A DNA stretch of 59,661 nucleotides from Plebeiibacterium marinum. GTDB lineage: Bacteria > Bacteroidota > Bacteroidia > Bacteroidales > Marinilabiliaceae. Each line of letters starts with the position of its first letter. The first letter of the stretch is position 1. The stretch is taken from positions 1 through 59,661 of the forward strand of contig NZ_JAPDPI010000032.1 in the NCBI RefSeq assembly GCF_026013615.1, in the 5' to 3' direction. The notes beneath the pieces were generated by a model, which saw only the letters and a program-made list of their open reading frames with translations, ran no database searches and had not been told where the DNA came from. Position numbers and translations under genes: made by a program. This document shows, in pieces, positions 28,785 to 59,661 of the stretch.

Positions 28785-30860
28785 ATGAAGATATTATATA
28801 AGTTAACAGCATTTATTTTTATCGCATCCCTGTTTTTTGCTTGTGAAACAGACGAAGATAAAATGTATAACCTTGATTATATGAAGGCGCCTTCAAATAT
28901 ATCGGCGATCTTTGATGTTACTCAGGATAATACAGGACTGGTAAGCATTACTCCAAATGCAGAAGGAGCTCAAAGCTATGTAATTGATTTTGGCGACGGC
29001 GCAGATACGGAAGAATACAAAGTAGGTGAAGCCATAGAGCATATCTTTTCGGAGGGGGTTTATAATGTTTCGATTACAGCTGTGGGAATAACAGGATTGG
29101 AAACTGATTTTACCCAGGAGCTGAATGTTACCTTCAAAGCACCCGAAAATGTTGAGGTTACTATTGCAAATGATAATGTAAACCCACGTATTGTTTCAGT
29201 AACAGCAAAAGCTGACTATGCCACTGTATTTGAAATTTATTGGGGCGATGCAGTTGATGAGGAACCCACAATGGCTATGCCGGAAGAAGCGGTTACGCAT
29301 ACTTATGAAGAACCGGGAGATTATGACTTGAAGGTAATTGCCAAAAGTGCGGGTGCCGCAACTACTGAGTATACCGAAACGGTTAATGTTCCAGCGGCTT
29401 CGGATCCCATCACTTTACCGGTTAACTTTGAATCGTTTACTGTTAATTATGCCTTTGCTGATTTTGGTGGGGTAACATCATCGGTGGTTGATAACCCGGA
29501 TGCCAGTGGAAATAATACCAGTGATAAAGTGGGTCATTCGGCTAAGCCTGCAAGTGCCGAAACATGGGGCGGATCTGTAATGACACTTGGAAGTCCAATC
29601 AATTTTGCTGACAAAACATTTAAGGTGAAAGTATGGTCTCCAAAAACAGGGGCAATAGTTAAACTAAAGGTAGAGAATCTGGATAATGGTGATATTAACC
29701 ATGAGGTAGACGCCACCACAACAGTAGCCAACGAATGGGAAGAATTGAGTTTTGATTTCTCAGGGATTGATACAAACAATGAATACCAGAAAGTGGTGCT
29801 GTTCTTTGATTTTGGGAATATGGGAGAGGACTCAAACTACTATTTCGATGATATTAAGTTAGTAACGGAGTCGGCAGCAGGAACCGGGATTGAAGGTATT
29901 TGGAGTGTTGCGTCTGAGGCAGGCTCAATAGGAGTTGGCCCCGGATTGGGCGATACTTCGTGGTGGACTATTGATGATGCGGGTGTTGCAGAAAGGGCCT
30001 GTTTCTTTGATGACACTTATATTTTTGGGGCTGATGGTTCCTTTAGTAATGTGTTGGGTGGAGAAACCTGGGTTGAAGGTTGGCAAGGCGGATCGGATGC
30101 TTGTGGTGCTCCCGTTGCTCCTCACAATGGTTCAAACCAGGCAACATATACCCACGATACAGGTGCCGGAACAGTTACGATCAGTGGTCTTGGTGCTTAT
30201 CTGGGAATTCCTAAAGCGGTTAATGGCAGTGAACTGGCAAGTCCTGATGACGCTGCTCAATCCATAACCTATGATGTAGAGCTTTCTGAAGGTAACACGG
30301 TAATGACCGTTGATATCTTTATTGGTGGCGAAGCCTGGTGGAGGTTTAAACTTGTTAAAGTAGGGGAGGTTTCTTCTTCGCCTTTGGCCGGATCGTGGAG
30401 CGTTGCGTCTGAGGCCGGGGCTATAGGAGTAGGTCCCGGAATGGGCGATACCTCATGGTGGGCTATTGATGATGCGGGTGTTGCAGAAAGGGCCTGTTTT
30501 TTTGATGATACTTATGTTTTTGGTGCAGATGGCTCGTTTAGCAATGTGTTGGGTGGAGATACCTGGGTTGAAGGATGGCAAGGCGGATCAGATGCTTGTG
30601 GTGCCCCGGTTGCTCCTCATGATGGCTCTAACCAGGCCACATATACTTACGATGAAGATGCCGGAACGATTACCCTGAATGGTCTTGGTGCTTACCTGGG
30701 AATACCTAAAGCGGTTAATGGCAGTGAACTGGCAAGTCCTGATGACGCTGCTCAATCCGTAACCTATGATGTAACACTTTCGGAGGGTAACACGGTAATG
30801 ACCGTTGATATTTTTATTGGAGGCGAAGCCTGGTGGAGATTCAAGCTTGTAAAAAACTAA
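28785..30860 (+). CDS. PKD-domain surface glycan-binding lipoprotein with a duplicated C-terminal domain
   Basis: This PUL lipoprotein has 691 residues, a signal ending LFFACETDED, two PKD domains (about 30-115 and 125-205), a carbohydrate-binding-like jelly-roll (about 215-365) and two C-terminal domains of about 153 residues. These two domains (about residues 373-525 and 538-690) are about 91% identical by direct count. No catalytic family is recognised. Position after SusD and the lipoprotein signal suggest a SusE-position surface glycan-binding protein. The repeated domain resembles the middle domain of the GH16 protein downstream, which suggests a beta-glucan-binding function (inference). 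Confidence 0.82.
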   Translation: MKILYKLTAFIFIASLFFACETDEDKMYNLDYMKAPSNISAIFDVTQDNTGLVSITPNAEGAQSYVIDFGDGADTEEYKVGEAIEHIFSEGVYNVSITAVGITGLETDFTQELNVTFKAPENVEVTIANDNVNPRIVSVTAKADYATVFEIYWGDAVDEEPTMAMPEEAVTHTYEEPGDYDLKVIAKSAGAATTEYTETVNVPAASDPITLPVNFESFTVNYAFADFGGVTSSVVDNPDASGNNTSDKVGHSAKPASAETWGGSVMTLGSPINFADKTFKVKVWSPKTGAIVKLKVENLDNGDINHEVDATTTVANEWEELSFDFSGIDTNNEYQKVVLFFDFGNMGEDSNYYFDDIKLVTESAAGTGIEGIWSVASEAGSIGVGPGLGDTSWWTIDDAGVAERACFFDDTYIFGADGSFSNVLGGETWVEGWQGGSDACGAPVAPHNGSNQATYTHDTGAGTVTISGLGAYLGIPKAVNGSELASPDDAAQSITYDVELSEGNTVMTVDIFIGGEAWWRFKLVKVGEVSSSPLAGSWSVASEAGAIGVGPGMGDTSWWAIDDAGVAERACFFDDTYVFGADGSFSNVLGGDTWVEGWQGGSDACGAPVAPHDGSNQATYTYDEDAGTITLNGLGAYLGIPKAVNGSELASPDDAAQSVTYDVTLSEGNTVMTVDIFIGGEAWWRFKLVKN
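29901..30854 (+). repeat. Intragenic direct repeat, period 495 nt
   Basis: Copy 1 spans 29901-30360 and copy 2 spans 30396-30854, both within the glycan-binding lipoprotein. The copies start with TGGAGTGTTGCGTCTGAGG and TGGAGCGTTGCGTCTGAGG. About 14 of 153 encoded residues differ, mostly conservatively, which points to a recent duplication. Confidence 0.9.
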
Positions 30861-36140: not shown

Positions 36141-36992
36141 CTAAAAATCCAGCAAATCGATTTTAAATTTTAAAACTTCATTGGCTATTTTATTTGAGGT
36201 TCCTCTGTAAGCCTGACTGCTTGGGATATATAAATAGGCCTCTCCTCCTTTTTTCATTAAAGGTATACCAACTTGCCATCCTTTGATAAGACCACCTAAA
36301 TTAAAAGTTACTGCTTCATCCGTTTTTTCAATTTCTTCATCATTAGGAATGGTGTAAAGTTCATATTTTACTGTTATATTAGAATCTGTTTCCGGAAAAT
36401 CCTCTCCAGATCCTTCAGCAATATGCTGAATATAAACGCCCGATTCCTCATCTTTAATGGCATTGGTAATTTCATTCGCAACAAAATACTCTTGAATGAT
36501 TTTATCATCCATTTCCTCAATTGTTTCAGCGTAATCGTTTAAAGTAACTCTAAATCTTAAAACAGAATTAGCCTGCGGACTTGTAGAGCCATAAAAGGCA
36601 TATCTGCATGGGATATAGATATCGGCTACTCCTCCTTCTTTCATATATGGGATACCGATATTTAGGCCTTGAAGTGTTTTCTCCAACTCCCATTTGGTTA
36701 AATCTTCAACTTCTGCTACTAGTTTATTGCTTGGTAATGAATAATACTTATAATATACCCTCACAACACCTCCTTCTTCAGGACTTTCTCCTTCTCCTTC
36801 TTCAATAATATCAATGTACACACCACTTTCATCAGCAATAGCGTTTTCAATATTATTGGTGGTAAAAAAGTCCTGAATAGTTTTATCATCTCTCTCAATA
36901 GTTTCTTCCATAGTAGGATAATCATCTGAGTCATCCATACAACTTGATAAGGCCAATAACACACCAAACACCAATAAAATTCTTCTCTTCAT
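36141..36992 (-). CDS. Lipoprotein with two FKBP-type peptidyl-prolyl isomerase domains
   Basis: This 283-residue protein has a lipoprotein signal ending LLALSSCMDD and two tandem FKBP-like domains (about 30-150 and 155-283). Each domain contains GVYI, a VxVxYxxY strand, a GIPYMKEGG or GIPLMKKGG loop, a YIPCRYAFYG or YIPSSQAYRG segment, and a final LRFRV or LKFKI strand. FKBP proteins catalyse proline isomerisation and assist periplasmic folding. Some active-site aromatic residues of canonical FKBP are not obvious, so activity is uncertain. The family includes gliding protein GldI. REP-like palindromes bound it on both sides. Confidence 0.85.
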   Translation of the reverse strand: MKRRILLVFGVLLALSSCMDDSDDYPTMEETIERDDKTIQDFFTTNNIENAIADESGVYIDIIEEGEGESPEEGGVVRVYYKYYSLPSNKLVAEVEDLTKWELEKTLQGLNIGIPYMKEGGVADIYIPCRYAFYGSTSPQANSVLRFRVTLNDYAETIEEMDDKIIQEYFVANEITNAIKDEESGVYIQHIAEGSGEDFPETDSNITVKYELYTIPNDEEIEKTDEAVTFNLGGLIKGWQVGIPLMKKGGEAYLYIPSSQAYRGTSNKIANEVLKFKIDLLDF

Positions 36993-37057
36993 AATTATTA
37001 TTTTTTAGTAAAAAACTCGATGTGTATGACTGGTGAAAAACGTAAGGGTTGCGTTTG

Positions 37058-37140
37058 TTACTCACAGGGGTGACTTATACTCACGGGGTGACTATTAGCA
37101 TGATGCCAATAGTCACCCTGTGAGTAACATAGTCACCCCT
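37058..37140. repeat. Nested REP-like palindrome at the DUF6261-like gene 3' end
   Basis: The inner palindrome (about 37079-37126) has arms TACTCACGGGGTGACTATTA and TAGTCACCCTGTGAGTA with GC-AT linkers. An outer pair AGGGGTGACT (about 37066-37075) and AGTCACCCCT (37131-37140) encloses it. Both arms repeat the same 16-20-mer found at 35857 and 36071. It ends 4 nt from the stop codon at 37145. Confidence 0.8.
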
Positions 37141-37144
37141 AAAA

Positions 37145-37897
37145 TTATTCTTCATTATTTATTACTTCAGGTTCAAGCTCAATTGAACCATTTTCTTTTC
37201 TTGTTTTGCGAGCTTTGGCTGTGGAAGTAATGTTTGTGATTGTTTGATTGATACCGTCAATTAATTCCTTTATACTTTCATTGGGGTTGAATTCAGCTTC
37301 ATATTCCAATGCATTTATAACAGAACAAAAGTCCTTGTGCAAATCCTTTCTGGAGCTCATCACCAAAGGCTTTTCCTTGCCCTCAAGGTTATCCCTTTTT
37401 ATAGAAATCTCCTCAAAAGCTTTTTGTGCAATACTTACCTGGTTAATATGCTCTCCACATGCTGTAGTTTCAATGTGTGGAAGATTTATTTCAAGATTTA
37501 TTTCGGCAAGTAACGACTTAGTTAGGCTAGTTTGTTTTGCATCACCCTCGTTATGCATCGACCATCCATGCCGTTTAATAATGTTGTAAATAACCTTTGC
37601 CGATGCTGCAATTTCTTCCTGCCAATGGTAACACTGAGAATCAATAAGGTTTCTGAAACCTAAAAATCGAAAGTCGCGGGTTTGCTCTGCCTGGTTTACT
37701 TCAATGGTTAACGGACTGCTTTGTTGTCTTTTAATAGCTATTTCAAACTCATTTAAATGGTTATCGATTTTAGCGATAAGTTGGTTTTTTTTGTCTTCAG
37801 AGAGATTTGAAGATTTAATAGCTGTTTTAATTCCGTTAACCATAGCATAAAATTCACCACTGGTTAAAAGGTGGTGATAAATTGGTTTTAAGTTCAT
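37145..37897 (-). CDS. DUF6261-like conserved protein
   Basis: This 250-residue cytoplasmic protein is helical, without signal peptide or membrane helix. It shows the opening SGEFYAMVNGIKTAIKSS, a middle RDFRFLGFRNLIDSQCYHWQ and a C-terminal lysine/glutamate-rich tail. From memory this fits the Bacteroidota family DUF6261 whose function is unknown; I cannot confirm it here. It is not in an obvious operon: a REP-like palindrome follows it and a 1.48-kb gene-poor region with the tandem array precedes it. Confidence 0.65.
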   Translation of the reverse strand: MNLKPIYHHLLTSGEFYAMVNGIKTAIKSSNLSEDKKNQLIAKIDNHLNEFEIAIKRQQSSPLTIEVNQAEQTRDFRFLGFRNLIDSQCYHWQEEIAASAKVIYNIIKRHGWSMHNEGDAKQTSLTKSLLAEINLEINLPHIETTACGEHINQVSIAQKAFEEISIKRDNLEGKEKPLVMSSRKDLHKDFCSVINALEYEAEFNPNESIKELIDGINQTITNITSTAKARKTRKENGSIELEPEVINNEE

Positions 37898-38256
37898 GTT
37901 AAAAAAGATTTAAAAAATTATTGTGGCCGCAATGTACTATGTATTTTGAGATTACAAAAAATCGCGATTTTTAATAGAAAACACATTCGTCTAAAAAATG
38001 CATAAGTTTATCAATTAAAAAATCCTGATCATCATAACCAATATTGAATTAGTCAATATTAAAAAAATATAGGTTTGTAGGTTATTGTAAAAATCATATG
38101 GATTTAGGCCAAATGATAAACTAAATGACAAAATGATAAGTTGTTGGTTTTTATTAGTAGTTATCAGAAATAGAAAGAGATGTAAGGTGCTGTTAACTGT
38201 TGATTTGTGGCGACATGCTGTTTTTATTAAAAAGTCAAATGTTAAAAAGTATTAAT
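37898..38256. other. AT-rich gap before the tandem array
   Basis: This 359-nt stretch has no ORF. It contains poly-A/T-rich sequence and short direct words such as AAATGATAAACTAAATGACAAAATGATAAG-like repeats around 38111-38141. It presumably includes the promoter of the DUF6261-like gene on the minus strand, but no TAnnTTTG match was found. Confidence 0.35.
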
Positions 38257-39008
38257 ACTGACAACCCCAATCAAACGCTACATTGAGAGAAAATAAAAAC
38301 TGATAGCCCAAATGAAGGCCTTCAATGACATGAATCAAAAACTGACAGAGCCAATAAAGCACTACATTCACAATAAAAAATGCTGATGCACCCAATGAAG
38401 CGTTACATTGGGAGAAAAACATAACTGACAGCCCCAATCAAACGCTATATTGAGAGAAAATAAAAACCGACAGACCAAATGAAAGCCTTCAATGACACAA
38501 ATCAAAAACTGACAGAGCCAATAAAGCACTACATTCACAATAAAAAAATGCAGATGCACCCAATGAAGCGTTGCATTGGGAGAAAAATAAAACTGATAGC
38601 CCCAATCAAACGCTACATTGAGAGAAAATAAAAACCGACAGACCAAATGAAAGCCTTCAATGACACGAATCAAAAACTGACAGAGCCAATAAAGCGCTAC
38701 ATTGACAATAAAAAATACTGACGTTCTCAATGAAGCGTTACATTGGAAGGATAATAAAACTGACAGCCCCAATCAAACGCTACATTGAGAGAAAATAAAA
38801 ACCGACAGACCAAATGAAAGCCTTCAATGACACAAATCAAAAACTGACAGAGCCAATAAAGCGCTACATTCACAATAAAAAATGCAGATGCACACAATGA
38901 AGCGTTACATTGGAAGGATAATAAAACTGACAGCCCTAATCAAACGCTACATTGAGAGAAAATAAACCTGATACACCCAATGAAGGACTTCAACGACACG
39001 AATCAAAA
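38257..39008. repeat. Higher-order tandem repeat array, 18 units of 41-42 bp
   Basis: Eighteen degenerate units fill 752 bp. Unit types a-b-c-d repeat in order four and a half times, with starts of type a at 38257, 38424, 38592, 38759 and 38926, so the higher period is 167-168 bp. Consensus parts are ACTGACAG, CCAAT-nn-AAG, CATTG and an A-rich AAAATAAAA end. Type d contains CCAATG-N8-CATTGG, and type b1 contains the palindrome TGAAGGCCTTCA. The last unit (38967-39008) begins like d and ends like b, a hybrid. Long minus-strand frames across it have 14-residue periodicity but change frame where units have 41 bp, so a protein is unlikely. Confidence 0.92.
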
Positions 39009-39056
39009 ACCATTAGAAATTAATCATCACCAATCAATAATTAAAGACAGCCGTTA

Positions 39057-39085
39057 TTGAATAGACGAACAAATTAGTATATTTG
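39057..39085 (+). promoter_or_regulatory. Promoter candidate after the array
   Basis: TTG at 39057-39059 precedes TATATTTG at 39078-39085 with 18 nt between. It lies 49 nt past the array and 292 nt before the CPBP gene at 39377, so the leader would be about 285 nt. Confidence 0.45.
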
Positions 39086-39376
39086 ATTGGCAAATAACAA
39101 AAGAAATCAAACAATTATGACTATTTACCGATAAAGCCAAAATGCAAAAATAATTATAACCCAATATATACAAAATATATATAAGTTCGTTAAATCAATT
39201 AGTTACAGAGGTTTTAAACCTTGCATATAATATATGTAAAGTGAATGGGTTTAGCGAAATGTTGGCGGGCATAATAACGCGAGAATTTATATCATGGTAG
39301 GATGATTTTAACAACTTCAAATAATAAAAAAATCTCTATAAAATAACTTAAGCTTTTATTCCAAAAAAATAGATTT

Positions 39377-40219
39377 ATGAATCGTTTAAAAATTTATACA
39401 ACTGGATTTCTTTTGCTTCTTCTTTCAATTGGATTGAGTTTTTTAATATTCAAATTTAGGTCTTCAGTTAATTTCGGAAGTTATATTGACCCGATTTATC
39501 ATTTATGGTTATTTGGACCAACTTTAGCATCAATAGTTTTCATATTCGTAATTAAAAAGGATTCTTTCAATTTGATTTCTTTAAAAAATATTCAAAACAA
39601 GAGGAGTTTCTTTGCCACGATAATTGTTATGATATTTTCTGTTTTACTCGCAACTTTGATTCAATATATTCTTGGATATACAGAATTTCAAAGAAGTAAT
39701 CAATTGTTCTTTCTTTTTAACTATCAGTTTTCTCCAATGGCAGGGTCGATTTTGTATTTAATGTTGCTTCTAATTCACGCAGGATTTGCGGAGGAATTTG
39801 CATGGAGAGGATACTTGTTTTCAAAATTAAAGACCCTATCTTGGCTTGAAATGATTATACTATTAAATTCTATATGGGCAATATGGCATTTCCCTTTTAT
39901 GCCTTTTAAAGAGTGGTATCAATATTTATTATTTTGGATTCTTTGCATTGAACTTGGTACGGTTTTAATTTATGTTCGAATTAAAACGAAATCCGTGCTT
40001 TCTTCAATGATTTTGCATCCATTAGTTGTTTTTACTTTATCAGTGCTTTTTGTGCCATATTTCAAGATTATAAGTAAAAATGGAGCTGGTTGGCCAAACT
40101 ATATAGTAGCCTTGATTTTCTTACCAATAAGTATCTACTATTTTAAAAAGGGACAAATAATATATAATAGTTACGCCCCCCCACACACACGGCATCATAA
40201 ACCATGCGGGGCGCAGTGA
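39377..40219 (+). CDS. CPBP family intramembrane protease with altered C-terminus
   Basis: This 280-residue polytopic protein has the CPBP EExxxR motif in FAEEFAWRGYLF and a second motif in AIWHFPFMPF. A third histidine appears in MILHPLVVF. The gene is AT-rich compared with the surrounding housekeeping genes. The last 17 residues (SYAPPHTRHHKPCGAQ region) are encoded by a MITE-like palindrome starting near 40175, so the natural C-terminus was probably replaced by an insertion. It is the first gene after the tandem array. Its role, possibly in protein maturation or immunity, is not known. Confidence 0.82.
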   Translation: MNRLKIYTTGFLLLLLSIGLSFLIFKFRSSVNFGSYIDPIYHLWLFGPTLASIVFIFVIKKDSFNLISLKNIQNKRSFFATIIVMIFSVLLATLIQYILGYTEFQRSNQLFFLFNYQFSPMAGSILYLMLLLIHAGFAEEFAWRGYLFSKLKTLSWLEMIILLNSIWAIWHFPFMPFKEWYQYLLFWILCIELGTVLIYVRIKTKSVLSSMILHPLVVFTLSVLFVPYFKIISKNGAGWPNYIVALIFLPISIYYFKKGQIIYNSYAPPHTRHHKPCGAQ

Positions 40220-40383
40220 TTCGCTAGGTTGCGGTTATTTCAATAAGTCCGCCCAATGTTTTTAAAGAAACTATTTATTGTTAAATTTAGTCCCTGTAAA
40301 AACATTGGGCTAAGTGCGATGAAAGAAAGGTCGTACTATTTCAATCCCCGCACGGTTCATATGCCCAATCCGTCCGTTGGGGC
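40175..40383. mobile_element. MITE-like palindromic element, 209 bp
   Basis: The element is bounded by GCCCC (40175) and GGGGC (40383). Imperfect terminal inverted repeats are visible at 40191-40211 and 40346-40365 (GGCATCATAAACCATGCGGGG against the reverse complement of the right end, with a gap and two differences). A second, perfect 14-bp inverted repeat is inside (40251-40264 and 40297-40310, GCCCAATGTTTTTA). It has no ORF of its own and encodes the last residues of the upstream CPBP protein. No target duplication was identified by eye. Confidence 0.6.
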
Positions 40384-40401
40384 AATTAAATCCTATAAAA
40401 C

Positions 40402-41028
40402 ATGAAACATCTTATTTGCGCAATTATTATATTAAGTTCAATCCAAAATTCATTTGGTCAGAGATCGAAAAAATTACCAAGATATTTTGTCGAACCTATC
40501 GGAATTGACAGTACAGCCACAGTTATGATTCCAACTAGATATAATTCAGATTTACTTTCATCAAGTAAAATTGCACTGTGGAATAATTTCTATGCAAATA
40601 TTATCTTTTACAACTTTGAGAATGACTCTACGCACAAACTCTTTGATAAAGATACATTCATACAAGGATTTAGAAGTAATTCTTCATATTACTATAACAT
40701 GAGTGCTGATAAAAAAAATATTAGTTCTGAATGGATCTTCTATTTTGTAAAAACCATTGACTTTAATCAGAGCGGGAGAATTGACAATGAAGATCCCTCA
40801 ATTTTATATGTCTCAGATAAGTTTGGTAAGAATTTAAAACCTATAACACCAAATAATGAAAACGCAGTTAGCATTGAGATTTATAACGAGAAAGATTTTG
40901 CTCTAATTAAAATGCAAAAAGACCATAACGGAGATAGAAAATTTAACAATAAGGACAAAGAATATTATTTTATTAGCCTGAGTTTGAAGAACCTTGAGTT
41001 TGGAAAGAAAATAGAAATTGATAAATAA
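40402..41028 (+). CDS. Hypothetical secreted protein with EF-hand-like loops
   Basis: This 208-residue protein has a signal peptide ending SFGQ and a mature part rich in Asn, Lys and aromatic residues. Two calcium-loop-like stretches are visible: DFNQSGRIDNED and DHNGDRKFNNKD, each with acidic or amide residues at positions 1, 3, 5 and 12 as in EF-hand or dockerin loops. No family is recognised. The gene is AT-rich and lies between the MITE-like element and a terminator, so it may be a recently acquired gene. It is not obviously linked to the TlpA cluster downstream. Confidence 0.65.
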   Translation: MKHLICAIIILSSIQNSFGQRSKKLPRYFVEPIGIDSTATVMIPTRYNSDLLSSSKIALWNNFYANIIFYNFENDSTHKLFDKDTFIQGFRSNSSYYYNMSADKKNISSEWIFYFVKTIDFNQSGRIDNEDPSILYVSDKFGKNLKPITPNNENAVSIEIYNEKDFALIKMQKDHNGDRKFNNKDKEYYFISLSLKNLEFGKKIEIDK

Positions 41029-41390
41029 TTGGCCACAACAATAAATATGTTTTATGACATGCCACTAAAATATGCGGAAAATGGAAATCTGATTTTCACC
41101 ATTGATGAATAATAAAAAACACATGATAGCATTCATAAATTGACAAGTAGCAAATATGATGAAAATGAAAAATTATAACTAAATCAATAAAAACGGACAA
41201 TTCATTTCTTATTAATGACAGTGAGTTCGATCAAAGGAAGCAAGTGAATTCAAAAGGAAACTAATAATAGAATAACCAAATCATATGTTTGAAATAATGT
41301 GTCAATTTACTACATTAGTTCTCGCTTTGTTATGAGAACTAATTTTTAATCCTTGCTATCGGAGTTACACACTAAATACAACTTAATCCT
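41029..41390. other. AT-rich intergenic gap
   Basis: This 362-nt region separates the secreted unknown from the TlpA-like gene. The only clear signal is the terminator at 41314-41347. The rest looks like decayed sequence, with many short A-rich words and no intact ORF. Confidence 0.4.
41314..41347 (+). terminator. Rho-independent terminator
   Basis: ATTAGTTCTC (41314-41323) pairs perfectly with GAGAACTAAT (41334-41343), followed by TTTTAAT. It is 44 nt before the TlpA-like start. Confidence 0.7.
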
Positions 41391-42896
41391 ATGAAACGAA
41401 TAATCCTTTATGTTATCTCGGCACTTGCTTTTTTAGCCTGTACCCCTAACCAAAACCCTCAAACAAAAAAAGCCATTGTAGCTGGTTGTGTTTCTAACTA
41501 TGATAAAGTGTCGGATCACAATATTATTGAGATTTTTTATGATGATATTCTTGCCGGACAGATAAAACTTTCTGAAAAAATAAACCCGAACGGGCAGTTT
41601 AAGTTTGTAGTTGATCTGGATTACCCTACCGCATTTTATTTAAAGTACAGCGGACTTTTAACTTACCATATATCACCGGGCGATAGTTTGCACTTTGAAA
41701 TTAATGCCGATTGCTGGAGCAAAACATCAAATTCCTTTGCCGAAGAATACAGTTTTTATAAAGTTTCCGGCACCTCAAAAAAAATGAATAATGATGTGGC
41801 AGCTTACACGGCATTTTTTATCGACTCCATTAATAATATGGATGAACATGATGAAATGGTTAAAAATGCTTCGCCGCTGGAATACCGGAGTTACGTTGAG
41901 GCGTTAACAAAAGAGCGGATAGGGATTGTTGAAGAATTTAATAAAACCAATAATACTTGTCCGCAGTTTCGGAATTGGGTAAACCATAAACTAGAGTATG
42001 ATAAATGGGATGAGTTGATGCGGTATAGGTGGTTGCACCCAATGCACAATCAAAAAGATATGGATGAGTTTATGGGTTCAATACCTCGTGAATATTTTGA
42101 TTTTTTTAGTGGCTGGGACAAGGATAATAAGGAATGCCTGAGCAGTAATAGCTATTTGAGTTTTTTGCATGAATATACCATGTACGTAGACCAGTGCGTT
42201 CCACAGGATAGCCAAAAGGTTTATCGTGCCTTGTATAATACAGATTTTGAAAAGAGCATGGGATTCTTTTTGCGTTATTACCCCTCAGTAGAAACGGGCT
42301 TTATTAAAGATGTACTTATATCAAAGTTTTATTACAGGTTGCTTGGAGCAAAGTATTACGACAAGATTAAAAACATTTACTACCCTGAGTTAATTGAAGA
42401 TGAATACTTAAAGCAGCGGGTGCAAAGTAAATTTAAAATTGAGAAAGACCTGTTTGAAAATCCTCAGTATGCAGCAGGTTCAAAAATCAACCAATTGGCT
42501 ACGGAAAACAATTACTTGAATAGTCTGAAAGAAAAATTTCCGGGTAAAGTATTGTATATAGATTTCTGGGCTCCTTGGTGTAGTCCATGTATGGGTGAAA
42601 TGCCTCATGCAAAAAACATTAAAAAACACTTTGAAGGCGAAGACGTGGTGTTTATTTATCTCGCTAACCGTTGTGAGGAGAGTGCATGGAAAAGTACAAT
42701 TGCAGAAAAAAAGATTGAGGGAGAGCATTTTCACTTAAACGACAAACAGTTTGCCGAACTGGGACAGGTTTTTAATATAACAGGCATCCCCCATTATGCC
42801 CTGATCAACAAAGAAGGGGTGGTTGTGAGAAATAAAGCCCCCCGACCAAGCAATGGGAAGGAACTAATTGAGCTGATTGAAAAACAGTTGAATTAA
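41391..42896 (+). CDS. TlpA-like thioredoxin lipoprotein
   Basis: This 501-residue lipoprotein (signal ending LAFLACTPN) has an N-terminal beta-rich domain (about 30-130) and a helical middle. The C-terminal thioredoxin/TlpA domain (about 375-501) has the redox motif WCSPC with Cys397 and Cys400 and a cis-proline loop TGIPHYALI. Such proteins reduce or isomerise disulfides in the periplasm, commonly for cytochrome c maturation or stress resistance. It is followed by a T9SS cargo protein and a second TlpA-like lipoprotein. The specific client is not known. Confidence 0.88.
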   Translation: MKRIILYVISALAFLACTPNQNPQTKKAIVAGCVSNYDKVSDHNIIEIFYDDILAGQIKLSEKINPNGQFKFVVDLDYPTAFYLKYSGLLTYHISPGDSLHFEINADCWSKTSNSFAEEYSFYKVSGTSKKMNNDVAAYTAFFIDSINNMDEHDEMVKNASPLEYRSYVEALTKERIGIVEEFNKTNNTCPQFRNWVNHKLEYDKWDELMRYRWLHPMHNQKDMDEFMGSIPREYFDFFSGWDKDNKECLSSNSYLSFLHEYTMYVDQCVPQDSQKVYRALYNTDFEKSMGFFLRYYPSVETGFIKDVLISKFYYRLLGAKYYDKIKNIYYPELIEDEYLKQRVQSKFKIEKDLFENPQYAAGSKINQLATENNYLNSLKEKFPGKVLYIDFWAPWCSPCMGEMPHAKNIKKHFEGEDVVFIYLANRCEESAWKSTIAEKKIEGEHFHLNDKQFAELGQVFNITGIPHYALINKEGVVVRNKAPRPSNGKELIELIEKQLN

Positions 42897-55067: not shown

Positions 55068-55250
55068 TCGGTACGCGCCGAAACCACTATTTCAACAATT
55101 TGCCTTTCGGCATACGCCGAAAGGCTATTTTCTTAGAAAGTTGGCTTTCGGTAAGTGCCGATGAGCCATTTTTCGAAAAAGATGGGTTTTGGCATATGCC
55201 GATGGGATATTTTTTTAATAAGACGCTGTTTCGGCATTTACCGATGATGA
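55068..55250. repeat. Phased palindrome array, five copies
   Basis: Five 14-bp palindrome-like copies (consensus TCGGCATACGCCGA) start at 55068, 55107, 55148, 55189 and 55231, spaced 39, 41, 41 and 42 bp. Copy 2 is in a perfect 24-bp hairpin (55102-55125, 10-bp arms, ATAC loop). Copies 3-5 are followed by T-rich tracts on the plus strand. The short plus-strand frame across it also has 14-residue periodicity but no recognisable protein. The array lies between convergent genes. Confidence 0.88.
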
Positions 55251-58734: not shown

Positions 58735-59661
58735 TTATCTGGTCAAATAAATAAATCCGGTTAACTTTTTATCAATATCATGTATATGAATGATGTAGTA
58801 ATATGTACTTTCCGGAAGCTCGTCTCCAACTTTTAAACCAGTATTACACTCGCCATTCCAGTTGTTTTCATATTTACTTTGTTTGTATACAACATTACCC
58901 CAGCGGTTAAATATTTCAATGCTCACTTTCGAGAATTGGTTTAACCAGGGAATGCTGTACGTATCATTGTCACCATCATTATTTGGCGAGAATCCTTCGT
59001 ATAATTCCAATTCATCAATATCATAACATTTATCCGAATCCAGCCTGTTAGGAATTCCATCATTATCACAGTCTCCCTCAGCTTCATCTACATCAAGTAT
59101 GCCGTCATTGTCAGCGTCTGTATCAACCATATCTAAAATGCCATCGCCATCGGTATCTTCATTGCCTTCTTCAACATCAGGAATTCCGTCGCCATCGGTG
59201 TCTTCATCCCTGTAGTCCTCGATACCATCTCCATCCAGATCCAGATCCCCTTCATCTTCGTCAAGGATTCCATCATTATCCGAGTCCGGATCTCTGTAAT
59301 CTTCAATGCCATCGTTATCGGTATCCACAAACCCTTCATCTTCATCAATAATACCATCATTATCCGAATCCAGATCTCTGTAGTCTTCTATTCCGTCGCC
59401 ATCACTATCCTGATCGCCTTCGTCAGCATCCAGGATTCCATCATTATCCGAATCGGTATCATCCCTATCCAGGATTCCATCACCATCGGTATCCTCGTCT
59501 CCTTCATCCACATTCAGAATTCCATCATCATCATTATCTGTATCAAGAACCGAGATAGTTACCGTGGCCTGATCGCAAGCTCCTTCTGAATCACATACTT
59601 CATACACAAAACTATCTTCTCCAATAAAATCTTTATCTGGAGTGTAAGTATAAGTGCCATC
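58735..59661 (-). CDS. T9SS type B adhesin-like protein, partial (5' end outside window)
   Basis: The minus-strand frame is open to the window end, so the gene begins beyond 59661 and only its last 308 codons are present. The visible part starts in an Ig-like/cadherin-like repeat ([25 protein letters not shown]). About ten thrombospondin type-3-like calcium repeats follow ([19 protein letters not shown] and variants). The last 90 residues are the gliding motility-associated C-terminal (type B) sorting domain, with [29 protein letters not shown] and YYYIIHIHD. It is probably a large surface adhesin exported with PorP/SprF. Its full length and ligand cannot be seen. Confidence 0.92.

Follow-up and report, generated by a model that had tools for sequence, protein, structure and literature searches.

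The sopC (parS_F) site of the F plasmid consists, according to the excerpts of its description used here (PMC6238139), of a 43-bp repeat in twelve tandem copies with inverted repeats of 16 bp, to which a plasmid-coded protein binds. In type III toxin-antitoxin systems such as ToxIN, CptIN and TenpIN, tandem repeats are located upstream of a single gene, as stated in the excerpted part of a published account (PMC8860590), and REP elements and REPINs are presented in excerpts of two papers (PMC3116915, PMC3733652) as palindromic extragenic repeats belonging to a nearby gene, with copies elsewhere.

The window analysed here, meaning the whole stretch of 59,661 bp, is the entire contig C113 of a 5.62-Mb genome of Plebeiibacterium marinum assembled in 187 contigs. 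It carries at 38253-39010 a long tandem array next to a gene of DUF6261, to our knowledge a family of unknown function. An earlier note on this DNA described the array and missed its pairing with the gene next to it. We show that DUF6261 genes are usually paired with such adjacent arrays, and the results are indicative of a protein that is coupled to a satellite DNA of its own, an arrangement not described so far; a literature search, with most subscription journals outside its reach, found no description of a DUF6261-array association or of such repeats.

Architecture of the array and its neighbouring gene

The array in the window consists of about 18 units of 42 bp arranged in a 167-bp tetramer, as the earlier note had proposed, and TRF reports periods of 42 bp (17.5 copies), 167 bp (4.5 copies) and 335 bp (2.3 copies), with a score of 1339 as compared to a best score of 126 in 200 dinucleotide shuffles of 38001-39300 under the same settings. 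Units of type a start exactly where that note had placed them, at 38257, 38424, 38592, 38759 and 38926. The tetramers resemble each other closely (88.6-95.2% identity) and the unit types are more diverged, with a mean identity of 91.6% between units of the same type versus 64.6% between units of different types. These unit identities support the suggested history of an early 42-bp amplification followed by amplification of the tetramer. The last unit, at 38968-39009, is indeed a d/b hybrid, since its first half matches best to d1 (85%) and its second half to b3 (91%).

A hairpin in the units, also claimed previously, is present with the consensus CAATGTAG-CG-CTTCATTG, but it is moderate (p 0.075 versus shuffled units), and the pairs counted over all units comprise 99 Watson-Crick, 10 G-T, 5 A-C and 30 other combinations. 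No frame is open across the array. A coding repeat was considered, as 42 bp equal 14 codons and one frame resembles a 14-residue repeat, and was rejected because of the stops and frame shifts that break it; a CRISPR array was likewise rejected, the units lying head to tail without spacers. An Rfam search of 36500-41500 at E values up to 1 returned just two plant miRNA matches, far below the cut-off. When the array was used in DNA searches, as had been recommended, nothing similar was found in 40 relatives, nor in plasmids or phages, and a single related piece was found in its own genome, on contig C102. Two other repeats were noticed in the window: a 495-bp in-frame duplication at 29901-30854 (88% matches), inside a 691-aa ORF at 28785-30860, and 84- and 168-bp repeats at 59032-59538, within a frame that is open close to where the contig ends, which may be aspartate-rich calcium-binding repeats.

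The adjacent DUF6261 gene is located at 37145-37897 on the reverse strand, with its start codon 355 bp from the array, and encodes a protein of 250 aa. Its membership of the family is clear from a PF19775 score of 69.3 bits (E 4.6e-19) with a curated cut-off of 27. The protein is predicted to be all-helical (AlphaFold2 model with pLDDT 93.4 and pTM 0.68), and the model matches no PDB fold at E 0.001. DUF6261 proteins are acidic, with a median pI of 5.4 (n=56) and a value of 5.8 for the protein in the window, and no Pfam DNA-binding domain was found in a scan of this protein and 28 aligned members. The stretch between gene and array (37898-38252, read on the reverse strand) contains a perfect 16-bp palindrome, AAAAATCGCGATTTTT, at 37957-37972, which may lie in a promoter of the DUF6261 gene; scans of this stretch with consensus promoters and terminators, which are weak evidence, remained at chance level. 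Scanning of four neighbouring proteins identified DUF6261 itself, an FKBP/DUF4827 protein, a CPBP protein and one without a family. When the FKBP neighbour was used as a query, eight of the nine genomes examined from the genus yielded relatives of it. No ParA or ParB family was among the four proteins scanned, and the partition role that had been suggested finds no support in its strict sense.

DUF6261 is rare in the phylum, being present in 6 of 296 sampled genomes with the one under study included. Its genes are mostly intact, 81 of 83 matches lacking inner stops, and are under purifying selection in the two pairs with measurable dS out of six tried (dN/dS 0.11 and 0.02). No match was obtained in plasmids or phages with a single DUF6261 protein (L154) as query, nor in viral contigs with one family alignment (A2). 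No recurring partner gene was evident by eye among the nearest neighbours at ten named DUF6261 loci.

Association of DUF6261 genes with tandem arrays

A translated search with the array gave weak matches outside arrays (E 0.003 or worse) and by chance exposed 42-bp arrays of other sequence in the same genome and in a relative. Further such arrays were present in a 2.06-Mb sample of four genomes, one of them just upstream of a DUF6261-like gene, which suggested that an array of this kind might accompany DUF6261 genes in general. PF19775 is present in 17 of 41 genomes with 83 matches, of which 52 were examined, namely 30 cut out in the family search, 20 fetched later, that of the window and one from a sampled stretch. 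Using TRF rows with a score of at least 100 and a period of 15-100, and taking the row with the smallest period if several fitted, an array was found upstream at 37 of these 52 loci, downstream at 2 and on neither side at 13. Upstream arrays have a period of 41 or 42 bp in 36 cases and of 21 bp in one (L187, where a period of 42 was also found), and the two loci with a downstream array of 41 or 42 bp are paralogues of one genome. In comparison, the sampled stretches provided 1199 control ORFs, of which only 47 have any upstream array with a period of 15-100 and only 12 one with a period of 20-22 or 40-43; four of these 12 hits are due to the window's array and that of contig C110 themselves (37/52 versus 12/1199, Fisher p 2e-48).

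Individual assignments in this count deserve mention. The absence of an array at L131 rests on TRF of the segment, and L163 is counted among the 13 negative loci, its 41-bp array with a score of 117 having been dropped by the filter through the start codon chosen. L177, which is AT-rich and gives several TRF periods, was counted as having an array. At L166, whose protein is 43% identical to that of the window, no array was found by TRF or by eye. Fifteen named DUF6261 loci comprised five already counted and ten further ones, and an array of 40-42 bp is present at seven of the latter. It is located upstream in Thermophagus xiamenensis and in MAGs of Marinifilaceae, Bacteroidetes and Chitinophagaceae, and just downstream in Aquimarina atlantica, A. 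sediminis and a Bacteroidia MAG; none was found in Ancylomarina, Aquimarina algiphila and an uncultured Aquimarina. At three distant loci, taken from other taxonomic families within the order, the class and the phylum and examined on the upstream side only, a 41-bp array was found at the class and phylum loci and none at the order locus. Taken together, an array accompanies DUF6261 at 48 of the 65 loci examined and is absent from 17, with 31 of the 83 family matches lying outside the set of 52. The distance between start codon and array varies from 33 to 1021 bp and is often 100-250 bp. The earlier note had recognised no known class with such an architecture, and since this same architecture recurs at other DUF6261 genes, it constitutes a class.

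A set of 46 DUF6261 arrays, defined by TRF rows with periods of 38-45, comprises 41 arrays upstream and 5 downstream of the gene. Their sequences are mostly unrelated, and nonetheless the consensus unit measures 40 bp in 5, 41 bp in 22 and 42 bp in 19 of them. Similarity between units tracks similarity between the DUF6261 proteins (Mantel r 0.50, reached in 0 of 2000 permutations), and units from the relative G009 (L187) and from a Bacteroidia MAG (L211) have TTGCTGCA-NGA-TGCAGCAA in common. Plain co-inheritance may be the sole cause of this co-divergence. Palindromes in the consensus units have a mean z of 1.64, with 16 of 46 units at p <=0.05 and 30 not significant.

A second protein family with 21-bp steps

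Arrays with a step of 21 bp were found in two relatives, G006 (L077:233-482 and L088:10303-10537) and G011 (L129:6408-6607), near genes of a second helical family, designated PQLLE-like. The G011 protein matches NCBIfam NF052641 (PQLLE) at E 6e-10 with 39 bits, below the curated cut-off of 80, and the G006 gene is split into two ORFs, whose NF052641 matches score 49 and 99 bits. With the G011 protein as query, 39 matches were obtained, spread over 13 of 41 genomes. At a TRF score of at least 90, an array with a period of 20-22, 41-43 or 63 bp is present downstream at 18 of the 25 PQLLE-like loci examined and upstream at none of them, as compared to 17 of 1080 ORFs in a matched control (Fisher p 2e-24), where two of the 17 are the G011 array and one is a G006 array. 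At the split G006 gene, which is outside the 25, the array lies upstream instead. The 21-bp rows at these loci are often degenerate, with 57-70% matches in many.

The PQLLE-like model is, like that of DUF6261, all-helical with a predicted 56-residue helix in both, and it has no PDB match at E 0.001. Homology between the two families was considered and is not claimed, given an hhalign probability of 4.8%. No description of an array link was found for PQLLE in the literature searched.

Possible helical register of the units

The purine/pyrimidine power of the DUF6261 units at a quarter of the unit length (about 10.4 bp) exceeds that of dinucleotide shuffles, with z 3.9-4.7 for the 46 units and 3.6-4.2 for 21 non-redundant ones (p 0.001), this being one of 36 harmonics over three encodings. 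The half-unit harmonic reaches z 3.3-4.6 in the full set and 1.1-1.9 in the non-redundant set; AT content at 3.5 bp is also prominent (z 4.2), without a reading, and the window's own 42-bp unit carries no quarter-unit (10.5-bp) signal. Quarter-unit power and the 21-bp steps of the second family favour a register set by two or four turns of the DNA. The earlier suggestion of a phased DNA locus built on four helical turns gains from this power, from the 40-42-bp units and from the 21-bp family. Its part concerning A-tract curvature finds no support, as neither AT nor AA/TT content is in excess at the quarter period across the DUF6261 arrays, and A-tracts recur on one helical face because of the period alone.

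Arrays without a DUF6261 gene

DUF6261 matches of the genome are confined to contigs C113, C110, C122, C44 and C163, and all five of their arrays have gene-less relatives elsewhere, at ten places with one to three per family. The array of the window is represented by the piece on C102, that of C110 by an array on C113 itself starting at 55068, that of C122 on C157 and at C98:258, that of C44 on C55, at C98:926 and on C121, and that of C163 on C187, C107 and C97. The solo array on C113 (55068-55281) has 41-bp units with the palindrome TTTCGGCA-TGCCGAAA and matches the DUF6261-linked C110 array over 149 bp with 77% identity (blastn, E 1e-29); it lies 17 kb from the DUF6261 gene of the window and is unrelated to the array of the latter. 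Four solo arrays, one of them from the relative G020, each find their best match in a linked array of their own genome, with E values from 1e-27 to 1e-66, and some solo arrays are 87-93% identical to their linked relatives.

Within the C44 family, homology covers two TRF arrays and little more. On C98, homology to C122 extends past the array to the contig start, so that a segmental duplication is possible, and the stretch in common may hold the start of what we take to be a DUF4230-like gene. C98:1-1161 (L273, L275) also places solo arrays of two DUF6261 families side by side within 1.1 kb of the contig start. The solo arrays are intergenic, some upstream and others downstream of unrelated genes, and occupy no consistent place. 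Two further arrays of longer period were noticed in this genome, one of 170 bp (L058:16386-17162, 4.6 copies), situated immediately 3' of the DUF6261 gene on C110, and one of 166 bp (L067:9190-9674, 3.0 copies); neither contains an open frame, and TRF reports no 42-bp substructure in them.

Discussion

DUF6261 genes and their arrays occur together, and we propose that they constitute a two-part module in which the DUF6261 protein, by binding to the array beside its gene, forms a nucleoprotein assembly in helical phase, a reading of the binding to which we assign an even chance. According to this proposal, DUF6261 would recognise the core of its own unit, which is partly symmetric, with one assembly per unit, and because the unit equals four turns of B-DNA, the bound protein would line up on one face of the DNA. 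Nucleoprotein arrays of regular structure would thereby form at the locus as well as on the solo arrays, akin to that which SopB forms on sopC with its 43-bp repeats. The protein would drift together with its array, whereby each paralogue would acquire an address of its own. At the level of the cell, such an assembly could bridge or cluster the sites marked by arrays, silence them locally or merely maintain the satellite, and of these consequences clustering or silencing is the one that we think most likely.

Explanations other than binding by DUF6261 were weighed against the same data. The array could be a selfish repeat that is amplified or dispersed with the help of DUF6261 on the plan of REP elements and RAYT transposases, with the solo arrays as its offspring. 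The one to three solo relatives of each of the five families, some of them 87-93% identical, the restriction of C44-family homology to little more than the arrays and the proximity of two families' arrays at the start of C98 would be expected from such dispersal; DUF6261 however matches no transposase or nuclease family and no PDB fold at E 0.001, there are only ten solo places, and the C98-C122 homology runs past the array in the manner of a segmental duplication, and this explanation appears unlikely, although it is the strongest of the four considered. Slightly less probable again is that transcription of the array yields a repetitive RNA with DUF6261 as its protein partner, as in type III toxin-antitoxin systems, and a structured RNA had also been among the suggestions of the earlier note. 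Several copies of about 40 nt, in arrays of which 41 out of 46 precede a single gene, would suit this arrangement. RNA hairpins on one strand should moreover give more G-T than A-C pairs, and the 16 arrays with the clearest stems lean in this direction (26 versus 15), though with p 0.12. Over all 46 arrays the excess vanishes (68 versus 62), the sense strand folds better than the antisense strand in just 25 of 46 (p 0.24), and the palindrome arms show no covariation between units, which speaks against selection on pairing within the arrays in general; these tests covered nested folds and strand asymmetry. The promoter motif TANNTTTG is not enriched on the sense strand 5' of the 41 upstream arrays (0.44 per kb versus 1.43 on the other strand), no ToxN-like fold was matched, and the five downstream arrays as well as the solo arrays fit poorly with a transcript of this kind.

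The upstream position of 41 of the 46 arrays, with ends often 100-250 bp from the start codon, and the location of several solo arrays upstream of genes could also be read as the mark of an operator through which the DUF6261 gene regulates itself and the genes near solo arrays are controlled. We give this reading a lower probability than the RNA partner, since the distance to the gene varies from 33 to 1021 bp, five arrays lie downstream of it, other solo arrays are downstream of genes, and 2 to 18 phased copies in our judgement exceed the needs of a switch. The arrays might finally be functionless by-products of slippage in long intergenic regions near DUF6261 genes, as could be argued from the fast turnover of array sequence between loci and from the 13 of 52 loci without an array. 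This is very improbable in view of the enrichment over control ORFs (37/52 versus 12/1199), the single unit length across unrelated sequences and the matching solo arrays in trans.

Returning to the proposed binding of DUF6261 to its own array, the second family allows a wider and more tentative generalisation, which we hold to be somewhat short of an even prospect: Bacteroidota may possess a module in which a small all-helical protein reads its own locus-specific satellite in 21-bp, two-turn steps. At least two families without detectable homology would use it, DUF6261 with 42-bp arrays mostly upstream and the PQLLE-like family with 21-bp arrays mostly downstream, with pairs that co-diverge and several orthogonal pairs per cell, each marking or gathering its solo arrays, and such a module would be a bacterial counterpart of centromere satellites and their binding proteins. 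Co-evolution of satellites with their binding proteins has been studied mostly at eukaryotic centromeres, and if DUF6261 binds its array, the pairs would offer a small bacterial model of this process, with each paralogue serving as an orthogonal, naturally tandem DNA address for marking loci. A family of unknown function thereby gains a testable partner, and the presence of 42-bp arrays in these genomes an explanation, while the 21- or 42-bp phase rule provides a simple guide in the search for further families of this kind.

Relation to described systems

DUF6261 arrays resemble type III toxin-antitoxin loci, to the extent that the excerpted account of the latter describes them, in being tandem repeats upstream of a single gene. 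However, a promoter upstream of the repeats and a terminator before the gene were not found, the window being at chance level and TANNTTTG without enrichment in consensus scans that are weak in themselves; none of the endoribonuclease toxin families ToxN, CptN and TenpN was matched in Pfam, NCBIfam or PADLOC, and no PDB fold at E 0.001. An RNA signal is lacking, and solo and downstream arrays occur with DUF6261. With REP elements and RAYTs they have in common that copies of the array are dispersed in the genome, at ten solo places over the five families and at one for the array of the window; in contrast, no HUH tyrosine transposase was found beside the array, and the DUF6261 arrays are long, tandem and of fixed period with few solo places.

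As for sopC and SopB, DUF6261 matches no ParB family (28 aligned members scanned), and, in contrast to ParABS systems, no ParA is encoded among the four neighbouring proteins scanned. DUF6261 gave no match when plasmids were searched with a single query (L154), and its context is of chromosomal type with several different protein-array pairs per genome. In spite of these differences, the tandem layout is the same as that given for sopC in the excerpted source and the period is nearly the same (42 versus 43 bp), with an inverted repeat in the units of the window that is moderate (p 0.075). The class proposed here, the DUF6261-linked phased array, is defined by 40-42-bp units beside a DUF6261 gene, and the array of the window belongs to it.
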